From the NCBI GenBank assembly GCA_949287985.1, contig CASEIN010000047.1:1-64000 (forward strand): a stretch of 64,000 nt of DNA. The letters are read 5' to 3'. A program made the translations under genes and the position numbers. The notes under the pieces were generated by a model. That model did not search any database. It had not been told where the DNA came from and was given only the letters and a program-made list of their open reading frames with translations. This document shows, one piece after another, positions 43,274 to 51,853 of this stretch (positions are counted from its first letter, which is position 1; every line of letters begins with the position of its first letter). Source of the stretch: Mucispirillum schaedleri (GTDB taxonomy: Bacteria; Chrysiogenota; Deferribacteres; Deferribacterales; Mucispirillaceae).

Positions 43274-43443
43274 TAAGAAATTTTAAATTTTTATAAAAAA
43301 TTTTTCTGTTATCTTATAACTTATTTATAATATGGATAAATCAAGTAAAATTTTTTTTTTAAATATTATAAAAAATAATATATATAGTATAATATTTTAA
43401 TATAGTAGAAAGTTTTTTAATATATTAAATATAAATTACACAA

Positions 43444-43472
43444 TAAAAAAGCCCACAAAATAATTGTGGGCT
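43444..43472 (-). terminator. Terminator of lipoprotein unit 1
   Basis: AGCCCACAA (43450-43458) / TTGTGGGCT (43464-43472). On the minus strand it is followed by a T run (complement of 43445-43450). Confidence 0.88.
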
Positions 43473-43496
43473 GTAATGTTTAAAATATATTAATAC

Positions 43497-44183
43497 TTAT
43501 TTTGCATTAAATTTATACTGTATTAATGCACCAAGTTTATTTAAATCATCTACTGTTTTACTGTCAAGATAAGTTGGTTTAAAGCCAGCAGCACTATCAG
43601 GGTTGTCTGGTAAAAACTTAATATTGCTGTTATCTGGTATATACTGAGCAGCTTCTTCTTTTGTTAAAAATGCAATGATGAAGATACCTTCAGCAGGAAT
43701 TTCACCATTCCATACATCCAATAATATGTAATATGTTCCGCTGGCAGAAGCATCTAAAGATTTTGCACTTGTTAAATCATACATTTTACTTGAATAGTCA
43801 GGAAAATTAAGATTAGAGGCAACATCTTCATTCCCATAGTATATATTAGTATCTCCAAAATATGAACGATATCCCACACCTTTAATAATACCCATGCCAT
43901 ACTTAGATAAATCTGCCTCACCATTTAAGCCCATAGCAGAGCTTATTAAAATAGGATAGTATGTTTTTGAGTTATCAGTTCTTGGATTTGTTATATCAAT
44001 ACTTGCTTGCACTTGTCCGTATTCGTTTTTAGTAAAATTAAAAACGGTTTCATCTACTGGTATTGCACTTAAATCATAATTGCCACCACCTGTTCCCGTT
44101 TCTGTGCCACTGCCTGTATCAGCACAGCCTGAAATTACTGCAAGAAATACTACTAATAAGATTGATAATAAAGATTTTTTCAT
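43497..44183 (-). CDS. Putative lipoprotein, copy 1, under a poly-C promoter
   Basis: The 228-residue protein has a type II signal peptide MKKSLLSILLVVFLAVISGC, with lipobox VISG-C at C20. A Gly/Thr/Ser-rich linker (DTGSGTETGTGGG) leads to a mature domain with aromatic-rich strands (YYPILISSAMGLNGEADLSKYG; GTYYILLDVWNGEIPAEGIFIIAFL). No known family is recognised. AAGGAGAT precedes ATG. The absence of Asp at +2 (it has C-A-D) does not predict inner-membrane retention, so an outer-membrane or surface location is plausible. Its promoter carries nine cytosines in the spacer. Confidence 0.85.
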   Translation of the reverse strand: MKKSLLSILLVVFLAVISGCADTGSGTETGTGGGNYDLSAIPVDETVFNFTKNEYGQVQASIDITNPRTDNSKTYYPILISSAMGLNGEADLSKYGMGIIKGVGYRSYFGDTNIYYGNEDVASNLNFPDYSSKMYDLTSAKSLDASASGTYYILLDVWNGEIPAEGIFIIAFLTKEEAAQYIPDNSNIKFLPDNPDSAAGFKPTYLDSKTVDDLNKLGALIQYKFNAK

Positions 44184-44278
44184 AAAATATCTCCTTTTTT
44201 TTGTAATGGCATAACAAAAGATGGCATACTAGTTAAAAAACTTATTTATTTTTTTTGCACCATTTGAAATGCTTTCTC

Positions 44279-44305
44279 ATCATATCACGGGGGGGGGAAT
44301 GTCAA
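44279..44305 (-). promoter_or_regulatory. Phase-variable promoter candidate of lipoprotein copy 1 (C9 spacer)
   Basis: Minus-strand -35 TTGACA (44305-44300) and -10 TATGAT (44284-44279) are separated by 15 nt. The spacer reads TT, nine C, GTGA; the plus strand shows G9 at 44289-44297. TG one base before the -10 makes an extended -10. A 15-nt spacer is shorter than the 17-nt optimum, so gain of one or two cytosines should strengthen it. Confidence 0.75.
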
Positions 44306-44484
44306 GTGTTTTTTTAAAAAAGAGAAATTTTTATAAAAAAATTTTTCTACTATTTTATAATTTATTGATAATATGGATAAATTAAGTAAAAAATATTTTT
44401 TAAAAAATAAGAAAAATAACGTATTAATTATAATATTTTAATATAGTAGAAAGTTTTTTAATATGTTAAATAAAAATTACACAA

Positions 44485-44515
44485 TAAAAAAAGCCCACAA
44501 AATAAATTGTGGGCT
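44485..44515 (-). terminator. Terminator of lipoprotein unit 2
   Basis: AGCCCACAA (44492-44500) / TTGTGGGCT (44507-44515) with a T run on the minus strand; duplicate of the unit 1 terminator. Confidence 0.88.
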
Positions 44516-44537
44516 GTGATATAAAATTTATTAATAC

Positions 44538-45245
44538 TTATTTTACAGTAAATGTATACTGTTTTAATGCACCAAGTTTATTTAATTCATCTACTATTGT
44601 ATTATCAAGAAATTTTGGGTTATATGTCCAAGTATCACCATCAGGCGAAAGAATAATATTGTTATTATTTGGTATATATTCTTTTGCTTATTTTTCAGTT
44701 AAAAAAGCAATTACAAGTTTTCCTTCGCTAGGCATACTATACCCACTAGTAATCCAAACATAATATGTGCCTTTTCCATTTTCCTTTAAAGCTGTTTCAC
44801 CATTTAAATCATACATATCTCTTCCTTCACCGAAAACAAGATTGCTGTTTGAACTACTGCTTCCGAACTTTGTTTCATATGCAATACCTTTAGCAATACC
44901 AAAGTCAAAATTAGATAAATCAACTTCTCCATTTAAGCCCATAGCTGTGCTTATTAAAATAGGATAGTATTGCCCTTCACCTGTTCTAGGGTTAGTGATT
45001 GTTACAGCTTTAGGCTCAGTGCTTTCCGTACCTCCACCACTACTACTTGTGTCTTTAGTAAGTACAATAGGTGTTTCATCTACAGGTATTGCACTTGGAT
45101 CATAATTGCCATCACCTGAGCCAGTACCACCACTTGAGCCAGTTCCATCAACTGAGCTAGTTCCACCGCCTGAGCCAGTATCAGCACAGCCTGAAATTAC
45201 TGCAAGAAATACTACTAATAAGATTGATATTAAAGATTTATTCAT
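44538..45245 (-). pseudogene. Putative lipoprotein, copy 2, interrupted by a nonsense codon
   Basis: The signal peptide MNKSLISILLVVFLAVISGC is near-identical to copy 1. A longer Gly/Ser-rich linker and a related domain (YYPILISTAMGLNGEVDLSNF) follow. The frame stops at TAA 44690-44688 after FLTEK. Past that stop the same frame continues as AKEYIPNNNNI...LNKLGALKQYTFTVK to TAA 44540-44538, matching the C terminus of copy 1 (AAQYIPDNSNI...LNKLGALIQYKFNAK). At the stop position copy 1 has a sense codon, GAA, one base from TAA. The last 49 residues are lost unless the stop is read through. A 185-residue product is still possible. Confidence 0.8.
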
Positions 45246-45337
45246 AAAATATCTCCTTTTTTATAATGGCATAACAAAAGATGGCATACTAGTTAAAAAA
45301 TTTATTTAATTTTTTTCACCATTTGAAACACCTCCTC

Positions 45338-45365
45338 ATTATATCACAGGGGGGGGGAATATCAA
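45338..45365 (-). promoter_or_regulatory. Phase-variable promoter candidate of lipoprotein copy 2 (C9 spacer)
   Basis: Minus-strand -35 TTGATA (45365-45360) and -10 TATAAT (45343-45338) are separated by 16 nt. The spacer reads TT, nine C, TGTGA; plus strand G9 at 45349-45357. An extended -10 TG is present. The spacer is one base longer than in copy 1 because of an extra T after the tract. Confidence 0.75.
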
Positions 45366-45397
45366 GTGTTTTTTTAAAAAAGAGAAGTTTTATTGTT

Positions 45398-46312
45398 TTA
45401 TTTATTTTTTTTAGCCATAGGGTGAGTTTCATCATAGACTTTTAAAAGGGAGGCTAAATCAGAATGGGTATATTTTTGAGTAGTAGCAAGGGATTCGTGT
45501 CCTAAAAGTTCCTGTATTGACCTTAAATCTGCTCCGCCTTCAAGTAAATGGGTGGCAAATGTATGCCTAAAAGAGTGGGGCGAATAATCAAGGGGAAGCC
45601 CTGCTTTTTTTAGATATGTTTCTACTATTCGGCGAATAGTCCTGTCTGTCATACGGCTGCCAAGCCTGTTTATTATTAAAGCATCGCTTTCTACTACTCT
45701 TCCTTCACTTACTATATCATACATTACTTTATAATAATCTTTTATTAAAGATATTAATTCTGGGGCAAGTGGCACAATCCTTTCCTTTTTGCCTTTACCA
45801 CGTACAAGTATACGCATACCGTTTAAGTCAACTGCGTTTCTATCAAGCCCCACAAGTTCAGAAACACGGACGCCAGTGCCGTATAAAAGCTCTAATATTA
45901 AAGCATCCCGCATACCCATAGGGGTAGATTTATCTGGCAGGTCTAAAAGTGTAAAAATATCATCTACATTAAATACATTTGGCAGATATTTTTCTTTTTT
46001 AGGAAATTTTAACATTCTAGCAGGGTTATCTTCAATTATACCACGCCTGTATAGAAATTTGAAAAAGGATTTTAAAGTGGATATTTTCCTTTCAATGCTG
46101 GATTTTGAAAGCTCTTTATCATAAAGTGTTGTAATAAAGCCACGAAGTACATAAAAATCTACCACTTTTATATTACTGCCAAGCTTTTCTTCATCAATAT
46201 AAATAGCAAGTTCGCTTAAATCTTTTGCATAAGCTGTAATAGAATGATTACTATACTGCCTTTCTACTCTTATAAAATTTATAAATTCTTCTATTGCATT
46301 ATCTATTTCCAT
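45398..46312 (-). CDS. xerC: Tyrosine recombinase XerC-like
   Basis: The 304-residue site-specific recombinase would resolve chromosome dimers at dif. It has an N-terminal SAM-like core-binding domain (EFINFIRVERQYSNHSITAYAKDL) and the catalytic residues of the family. These are R in GTGVRVSEL, K in VRGKGKKER, HSFRHTFATHLLEGG (H-x-x-R), H in LGHESL and the nucleophile Y in TTQKYTH. It overlaps trmFO by 10 nt. The order topA-trmFO-xerC matches the Firmicutes arrangement in which this gene is called codV/xerC, though the following hslV-hslU is absent here. Confidence 0.93.
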   Translation of the reverse strand: MEIDNAIEEFINFIRVERQYSNHSITAYAKDLSELAIYIDEEKLGSNIKVVDFYVLRGFITTLYDKELSKSSIERKISTLKSFFKFLYRRGIIEDNPARMLKFPKKEKYLPNVFNVDDIFTLLDLPDKSTPMGMRDALILELLYGTGVRVSELVGLDRNAVDLNGMRILVRGKGKKERIVPLAPELISLIKDYYKVMYDIVSEGRVVESDALIINRLGSRMTDRTIRRIVETYLKKAGLPLDYSPHSFRHTFATHLLEGGADLRSIQELLGHESLATTQKYTHSDLASLLKVYDETHPMAKKNK

Positions 46313-51333: not shown

Positions 51334-51591
51334 TTATTCATAATGACCTTTGCAGGAGATAATATAAAGAATATTGTCTTCAACTTTGTATACAATTCTA
51401 TTTACACTATCTATTCTTCTGCTCCAATATCCTTGTAGTTCGTGCCTTAATGGTTCAGGCTTACCTAAACCATCAAAATTACCCCTTTCAATATCCTTTA
51501 TTAAGTTGTTGATTTTGTTTAATGTTTTTTTATCTTTTTGTTGCCATAATACATAATCATTCCATGCTTCATCAAACCAAATTTTTTTCAT
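51334..51591 (-). CDS. yoeB: YoeB-family mRNA interferase toxin
   Basis: The 85-residue protein is a close YoeB/Txe match. WFDEAWNDYVLWQQKDKKT opens it and GKPEPLRHELQGYWSRRI follows. E46, R65 and H83, the catalytic residues of E. coli YoeB, occur at the same positions. YoeB cleaves mRNA in the ribosomal A site. It lies 7 nt downstream of its antitoxin gene in the usual order. Confidence 0.93.
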   Translation of the reverse strand: MKKIWFDEAWNDYVLWQQKDKKTLNKINNLIKDIERGNFDGLGKPEPLRHELQGYWSRRIDSVNRIVYKVEDNILYIISCKGHYE

Positions 51592-51598
51592 AATAAAA

Positions 51599-51853
51599 TT
51601 ACTCTTCTATTAAATCATGTTCTCTGCCTTTTCCTTCATTAATTGCAGAGATACCTCTTTTTAAATGTTCCATGTTTGATTTTGAATAAAATGGGTCATT
51701 AGATATTTCAAAAGGTATTCGGTTATCTCGCAGTACTGCTTTTATAAATAATGAAATTGCAGTTGATGTATTCATTCCAACATCATGGCAAAATTTATCA
51801 AAAGCTTTCTTATTTTCCTTATCAATTCTAACACTAATAGTTGAATATTCCAT
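51599..51853 (-). CDS. RelB/DinJ-type antitoxin
   Basis: The 84-residue protein begins with a ribbon-helix-helix motif (TISVRIDKENKKAFDKFCHDVGMNTSTAISLFIKAV), typical of RelB/DinJ antitoxins that bind their own promoter. The C-terminal part, rich in charged residues, would wrap the toxin. YoeB is classically paired with a YefM/Phd-type antitoxin, so this pairing is a mixed one. The AT-rich 51854-51900 region upstream probably holds the autoregulated promoter. Confidence 0.88.
   Translation of the reverse strand: MEYSTISVRIDKENKKAFDKFCHDVGMNTSTAISLFIKAVLRDNRIPFEISNDPFYSKSNMEHLKRGISAINEGKGREHDLIEE

Follow-up and report, generated by a model that had tools for sequence, protein, structure and literature searches.

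A poly-C tract in the promoter spacer of a Mucispirillum lipoprotein gene and a genus-wide promoter family that is probably tuned by slippage

The vlp lipoprotein genes of Mycoplasma hyorhinis are linked in one cluster. Each of them was described as carrying a homopolymer in its promoter region, and insertions or deletions in its own tract turned the gene between ON and OFF (Citti and Wise 1995, cited in PMC10502178). In Neisseria meningitidis, an unstable homopolymer lies between the -35 and -10 elements of the surface protein genes opc, porA and fetA; the opc tract is poly-C, and the tracts are thought to act through sigma-factor binding (PMC2791445, PMC6389960). Among 17 clones of a mutS deletion strain, five were reported in which the C11 tract of opc had become C12 or C14 (PMC6389960). 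The length of a promoter poly-A tract was also found to affect the expression of N. meningitidis nspA; this tract was short (5 or 6 A), had no -35 consensus and showed no detected phase variation (PMC6389960). For Campylobacter jejuni NCTC11168, 29 loci with poly-G or poly-C of seven or more were reported; in the same source, a C. jejuni G8 tract is quoted as switching at a frequency of 0.004 and a G11 tract at 0.02 (PMC4965091).

The present analysis was performed on a window of 64,000 nucleotides, that is, the whole stretch of DNA analysed, from Mucispirillum schaedleri (GenBank assembly GCA_949287985.1, contig CASEIN010000047.1, positions 1 to 64,000). The species is part of defined mouse gut communities. 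In mice it belongs to the core gut microbiota, and mouse models have linked it to inflammation (PMC5285517). The main text of that paper contains none of the words phase, homopolymer and promoter, and among the papers listed by limited searches of the open-access literature there was no report of phase variation in Mucispirillum or its phylum.

Positions 44279-44305 of the window read ATCATATCACGGGGGGGGGAATGTCAA on the plus strand. On the minus strand (44305..44279), the same stretch was resolved into TTGACA, the 15-nt spacer TT-C9-GTGA and TATGAT, with the ATG of a lipoprotein gene (copy 1) located 101 nt downstream of the first base of the -10 element. When the sequence was read again, the coordinates, the nine cytosines, TTGACA, the 15-nt spacer and the TGA before TATGAT all agreed with the initial annotation, and the gene was indeed found to encode a signal with a lipobox. 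The annotation had also assigned the site to the architectural type of phase-variable promoters, and a homopolymer of at least seven was present between a recognisable -35 and -10, here (C9) as in all 71 promoters of this class parsed in the genus. Based on these and the following data, we consider it quite likely that the site is a sigma-70-like promoter with a slippage-prone C spacer, and that it is one of a genus-wide, slippage-tuned family mostly driving lipoprotein genes. The features of the locus are collected in the Table.

Table. Positions of the promoter and gene features of lipoprotein copies 1 and 2 in the window
Feature	Position	Strand	Remarks
-35 TTGACA, copy 1	44300..44305	-	sequence; exact TTGACA also in 68/71 genus promoters of the class
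C9 tract, copy 1	44289..44297	-	within the 15-nt spacer 44285-44299
-10 TATGAT, copy 1	44279..44284	-	TGA directly 5' (extended -10)
Ribosome-binding site AAGGAG, copy 1	44191..44196	-	RBS score 5/6
Lipoprotein copy 1	43497..44183	-	228 aa; lipobox VISGC
Terminator-like hairpin 3' of copy 1	43450..43472	-	
-35 TTGATA, copy 2	45360..45365	-	
C9 tract, copy 2	45349..45357	-	within the 16-nt spacer 45344-45359; C10 in the homologous G042 and G043 promoters
-10 TATAAT, copy 2	45338..45343	-	TGA directly 5'
Lipoprotein copy 2	44688..45245	-	185 aa open, then in-frame stop; homology to copy 1 continues to 44541
Terminator-like hairpin 3' of copy 2, ahead of copy 1	44492..44515	-	

A second promoter of this kind was located one kilobase upstream of that of copy 1 (45365..45338, minus strand), where TTGATA and TATAAT were separated by the 16-nt spacer TT-C9-TGTGA. 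Both copies were followed by a terminator-like hairpin, so that each looks like its own single-gene transcription unit. In this assembly, copy 2 was broken by a single in-frame stop (44541-45245, minus strand), and its homologs in the genomes G042 and G043 were fully open. Additionally, the 5' leaders of both copies (44184-44278 and 45246-45337, minus strand) contained an extra stretch with a repeated TATGCCAT motif, which was also present in the copy-2 homologs of G042 and G043 and absent from the other six aligned homologs. A Pfam scan of the two copies and of six further genes with tract promoters returned no domain above the cut-off. The AlphaFold model of copy 1 (mean pLDDT 77) consisted mostly of beta strands, and its Foldseek comparison with the PDB gave no match with E < 0.001, the TM-scores of the matches listed being 0.14-0.33 by query length, so that we assign no function from the model. 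When positions 43300-45600 were searched with a generic promoter scan, it yielded 15 sites against 13.3 in shuffled sequences, a result uninformative alone, with 15-nt spacers lying outside the range of the scan; its best site was the promoter of copy 2 (11/12). Elsewhere in the window (51334-51853, minus strand), two small adjacent genes of 85 and 84 aa resemble a pair made up of a YoeB/RelE-type toxin and a RelB/DinJ-type antitoxin.

The window has a G+C content of 31.4%, and the only C/G runs longer than six in it were the tracts of copies 1 and 2. The genome as a whole (2.44 Mb) contained 29 runs of at least nine (35 overlapping matches after merging), when ~0.24 were expected from base composition. 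The rarity of such runs, pointed out in the initial annotation, was thus borne out insofar as chance was excluded, but at 29 tracts they are not rare in the genome. Ten of the 29 were located in promoter spacers, nine as C on the promoter strand and one as G, and all nine C-strand tracts were placed between TTGACA or TTGATA and a TATAAT-like hexamer. Further, the pattern TTGA-N(2-9)-C7-N(2-18)-TANNNT was searched in 50 genomes of the phylum, where one tract may count repeatedly through overlapping choices of the -10. In the ten genus genomes the pattern matched 98 times and its reversed control 7 times, hence the association of tract and hexamers was not due to chance; no match was found in the genus genome G045 (57% complete). 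In G038, which belongs to a sister genus, there were 10 matches to the pattern and 1 to its reverse; across the remaining 39 genomes of the phylum the figures were 28 and 22. Six sites of G038 were parsed as C9 promoters. It was also observed that 58 tracts of C7 or more in G038 fitted one context pattern, whereas each of the ten Mucispirillum genomes had between 3 and 35.

Outside the genus, the spread of such promoters was assessed with a narrow pattern, which retrieved 38 stretches from the species-genome collection, 27 of them from Mucispirillum, one from Deferribacterales and ten from other taxa; the latter ten had C7-C8 tracts and C9 in none. One of them, an isolated promoter ahead of an ORF in a Clostridia assembly (L096:4354-4376, plus strand), shared the 15-nt geometry, made up there with C8 plus T. 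It was treated as a probable coincidence, the eight ORFs of that locus having given one weak match (27% identity) to a fetched locus. The viral contigs scanned with the promoter pattern gave 0 matches.

In total, 71 poly-C spacer promoters were parsed in 9 of the 10 genus genomes. This number was obtained from 85 parsed sites by setting aside five G-strand sites, three with TTGAGC and no downstream ORF, and the six of G038; it is a lower bound, as tracts of less than seven C and -35 elements not starting with TTG fall outside the parse, and the parsed loci are those around tracts matched in the pattern searches. Tract lengths were C7 in 2, C8 in 6, C9 in 53, C10 in 9 and C11 in 1 of the promoters, and the spacers measured 13 nt in 1, 14 nt in 8, 15 nt in 44, 16 nt in 11, 17 nt in 3 and 19 nt in 4. 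An exact TTGACA was found in 68/71, to be read with the demand of the search itself for TTGA, TATAAT in 38/71 and an extended -10 (TGn) in 52/71. Rather than marking a special short state of the copy 1 gene, C9 with a 15-nt spacer is the commonest geometry in the family. An ORF followed 70 of the 71 promoters; compared without their first 25 residues, the encoded proteins formed 28 families, and the nine promoters of this genome alone preceded members of eight families. The common element is therefore the promoter together with the export signal, not one gene family. The recurrence of the same anatomy at 71 promoters and in 28 families supports the reading as a slippage-tuned promoter family. 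A lipobox was detected in 50/76 downstream ORFs compared with 20/293 other ORFs of the same loci (Fisher p = 2e-26), the scripts for lipobox and ORF assignment being simple and the count covering 76 of the 77 promoters having an ORF, with G038 included. This enrichment of lipoprotein targets points in the same direction, and 21 of 35 flank clusters contained a lipoprotein. A second arrangement was noticed in five genomes (L030 at G000:C65:135614, L202, L203, L204 and L205), in which G9 abutted a TATGAT -10 in front of signal-peptide or other genes, with TTGACA 19 nt off in four and TTGACT 15 nt off in one.

The initial annotation had named a constant C9 in all reads and strains as a result that would refute its reading. 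Related species did not show such constancy: ten copy 1 homologs from six genomes, counted without a partial G046 match and secondary pieces, all had a tract promoter, with C7 in one, C8 in two, C9 in five and C10 in two. The clearest pair was G041_a (C9) and G044_a (C7), which otherwise agreed at every base for 177 nt ahead of the -35 and for 61 nt past the tract; their neighbourhood was ~93-94% identical, and they represent different species, not strains of one, as all length comparisons here are between species with one genome each. Similarly, the C9 of copy 2 corresponded to C10 in both G042 and G043. Such differences at homologous promoters support slippage. In contrast, several homologous groups were C9 throughout, for example the promoter of the MKKLLFSILF gene in the three genomes of its cluster, and C9 dominated the whole set, a preference not required of tracts that slip freely; both observations count against slippage. 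The one-contig genome G040 ranged from C7 to C11 with C9 in 4/10, compared with 49/61 in the other genus genomes (Fisher p = 0.014). The uniformity elsewhere may reflect assembly consensus or real stability, or the breadth of G040 may reflect length errors in that genome. When TTGACAWWCCC-N(8-14)-TANNNT, a pattern that sees just the members with two bases before the tract, was applied to ten genomes, C4-C6 occurred at only three of 48 distinct sites. The near absence of these intermediates favours slippage, since the long tract itself seems to be maintained.

The spacer lengths were compared with those of ordinary promoters. Tract-free TTGACA-N-TATAAT sites of five genus genomes (n = 123) were spaced by 14 nt in 6 cases, 15 nt in 20, 16 nt in 28, 17 nt in 21 and 18 nt in 6, and this concentration at 15, 16 and 17 nt speaks for slippage between usable spacings. 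At face value, C9 would then mark the lower limit of the favoured spacings, so that the loss of one C falls below them and the gain of one or two C remains among them. The yardstick is nevertheless soft and weakens the argument: over all spacings, TTGACA/TATAAT pairs were in no excess over the reversed control (31 vs 33; 111 vs 143, the latter with tract sites), a smaller unexplained bump appeared at 21 nt (13/123), and a looser local count allowing up to two mismatches gave no clear peak, its stricter subset numbering 4, 7, 5 and 4 at 15 to 18 nt. The suggestion that one or two additional cytosines would improve the copy 1 spacer was found plausible in that 16 nt was the commonest spacing of ordinary sites, but 15 nt was nearly as common. 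For the same reason, C9 in the copy 1 promoter is probably an active state. Tandem signal-peptide paralogs in L016 (G000:C37, promoters 4124 and 5187) had C9 and an eroded C5, respectively, both with a 15-nt spacer. Because the C5 paralog (G000:C37:5187) was still spaced by 15 nt, this spacing may well be workable without a tract.

We proposed the following sequence of events. Replication slippage would add or remove cytosines at a high rate, and each C would shift the -10 by 1 nt relative to the -35, thus altering the engagement of RNA polymerase; one base corresponds to ~34 degrees of helix turn. The non-C bases of the spacer summed to 6 nt in 52/71 promoters, in varying splits (TT/RTGA, AAT/ATG, AAAT/GT). 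With six such bases, C9, C10 and C11 would give 15, 16 and 17 nt and are predicted to be active, because these are the most frequent spacings among ordinary consensus sites in the genus, with C10 or C11 possibly the strongest. Little or no activity is expected of C8 (14 nt) and C7 (13 nt), and C12 or more should be weak. The extended -10 of 52 promoters may make the output less sensitive to the distance of the -35 and could blunt the spacer effect, which tells against this mechanism. Independent tracts at many unlinked lipoprotein genes would then produce different lipoprotein sets within one population.

Tracts outside the promoters were examined as well. Of those flanked on one side by an open frame of 60 codons or more, 38/42 were poly-G on the coding strand, and the best upstream and downstream frames were in register across the tract in 23 and out of register in 19. 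Six proteins of poly-G-tract genes were scanned, and five were of glycan type (FdtA, GT2, MBOAT twice and GT9), the sixth being a DAO-type oxidoreductase. Glycan-type genes are the usual contingency class, and in C. jejuni it is typically the genes for surface glycans that carry coding poly-G tracts. The occurrence of the other tracts as coding poly-G in such genes is in favour of slippage in the promoters too. The loci L027, L029, L207, L208 and L209 were coding poly-G clusters, several in FdtA, GT2, MBOAT and GT9 genes, and the halves of some of these genes were out of register. Among the fetched loci, the share of C9 was 36/49 in other tracts and 67/85 in promoter sites of both orientations. 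As C9 was equally dominant outside promoters, its prevalence seems to belong to the tracts themselves and not to promoters, which again weighs against a regulatory slippage reading. Loss of mismatch repair was considered as the cause of the many tracts and ruled out, MutS1 and MutL being present in the genus: the MutS_I domain was detected in 8/10 and MutL_C in 9/10 genus genomes, with absences only at ≤86% completeness. MutS and MutL limit slippage, and their presence is a further point against it. To our knowledge, contingency genomes of the Campylobacter and Helicobacter type lack mismatch repair, and Mucispirillum differs from them in this respect.

The best surviving alternative, which we nevertheless regard as unlikely, is that C9 is a stable structural or recognition element, either a stiff GC spacer or a regulator site, that sets the 15-nt spacing for a co-regulated lipoprotein set, slippage having no regulatory role. 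The prevalence of C9 tracts (53/71) and 15-nt spacers (44/71) fits such a fixed arrangement, and so does the mutual adjustment of the spacer parts. A 15-nt spacer was present in 24/35 cluster representatives against a permutation mean of 39%, with 0/20000 shuffles as high, and the left and right parts were correlated at -0.53; the set comprised 35 of the 36 representatives, with G038 in and the TTGAGC cluster out, and the clusters were joined on flank similarity only, so that paralogs may be merged. Two C8 members (G043:C20 and G043:C25) kept 15 nt through another base beside the tract, and the C5 tandem paralog in G000 kept it as well. However, common descent may account for part of the compensation, as shared cassette ancestry can yield the same signal, and the C5 paralog becomes C6 with 16 nt in G043. 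A fixed element also agrees poorly with homologous promoters ranging from C7 to C10, with C7 to C11 in the one-contig G040, and with a C9 mode equally strong in tracts where no spacer is at stake.

It is considerably less probable still that duplication or gene conversion of a promoter-leader-signal-peptide cassette spread the tract as a passenger without a regulatory role. Copies 1 and 2 would suit this explanation, as their promoter, leader and signal-peptide start were near-identical and their proteins shared ~55%, and so would the tandem duplicates with identical printed promoters at G043:C6:78323 and 79127. A passenger does not readily explain 28 protein families and 36 flank clusters with differing left and right spacer sequences, nor the retention of long tracts with eroded forms almost absent. 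Finally, a homopolymer artefact of assembly or sequencing, with true lengths differing from those shown, is hardly credible: the named genus genomes were assembled from metagenomes, contig ends are close to some of the tracts (for example G047:C60:55, G044:C36:37, G042:C10:100) and C9 was more dominant in the other genomes than in G040, but the same tracts at the same genes recurred across species assembled in several projects, and an artefact would not position tracts between TTGACA and TATAAT.

Overall, the interpretation given in the initial annotation was partly supported, and its slippage mechanism appears to be the best available one, with the comparison between species in its favour. 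We lean slightly towards a wider reading, in which a standardised TTGACA-C9-TATAAT cassette, its flanks set to yield a 15-nt spacer at the usual tract length of C9, would be attached to several unlinked lipoprotein genes per genome and would make the lipoprotein coat of this gut commensal a combinatorial, heritable and reversible lottery, forming a genus-wide promoter phasome. If tract slippage does switch lipoproteins, clonal cultures would be mixtures, and colony-to-colony and mouse-to-mouse differences would gain a genetic cause that assemblies can hide. The lipoprotein set that is ON during inflammation would become readable from sequencing data, and the promoters from C7 to C11 would offer a natural series for measuring spacer length against promoter strength outside the usual model bacteria.

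Among the described systems, vlp, a set of surface lipoprotein genes, resembles the present one in having a homopolymer in the promoter regions of lipoprotein genes (PMC10502178). The vlp tracts are poly-A and belong to a paralogous family of a mycoplasma, whereas those described here are poly-C and belong to dispersed genes of many families; moreover, switching has been demonstrated for vlp, and for Mucispirillum we infer it from sequence comparison. The nspA gene warns against taking a homopolymer in a promoter as sufficient proof of switching. The C. jejuni genome bears a comparable load, with 29 loci of at least seven against 29 tracts of at least nine here, the thresholds being different, but its tracts lie in reading frames and switch by frame, and the portion of that source consulted does not mention a promoter-spacer family (PMC4965091). 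The opc promoter also has poly-C between the -35 and -10, and its reported tracts of 11-14 C are longer than the C9 mode of Mucispirillum (PMC6389960). In the passages cited, opc, porA and fetA are named as single genes, whereas the Mucispirillum geometry is shared at many loci. The Mucispirillum promoters differ from the known systems in that a single geometry recurs, throughout a genus, in front of many genes from different families.
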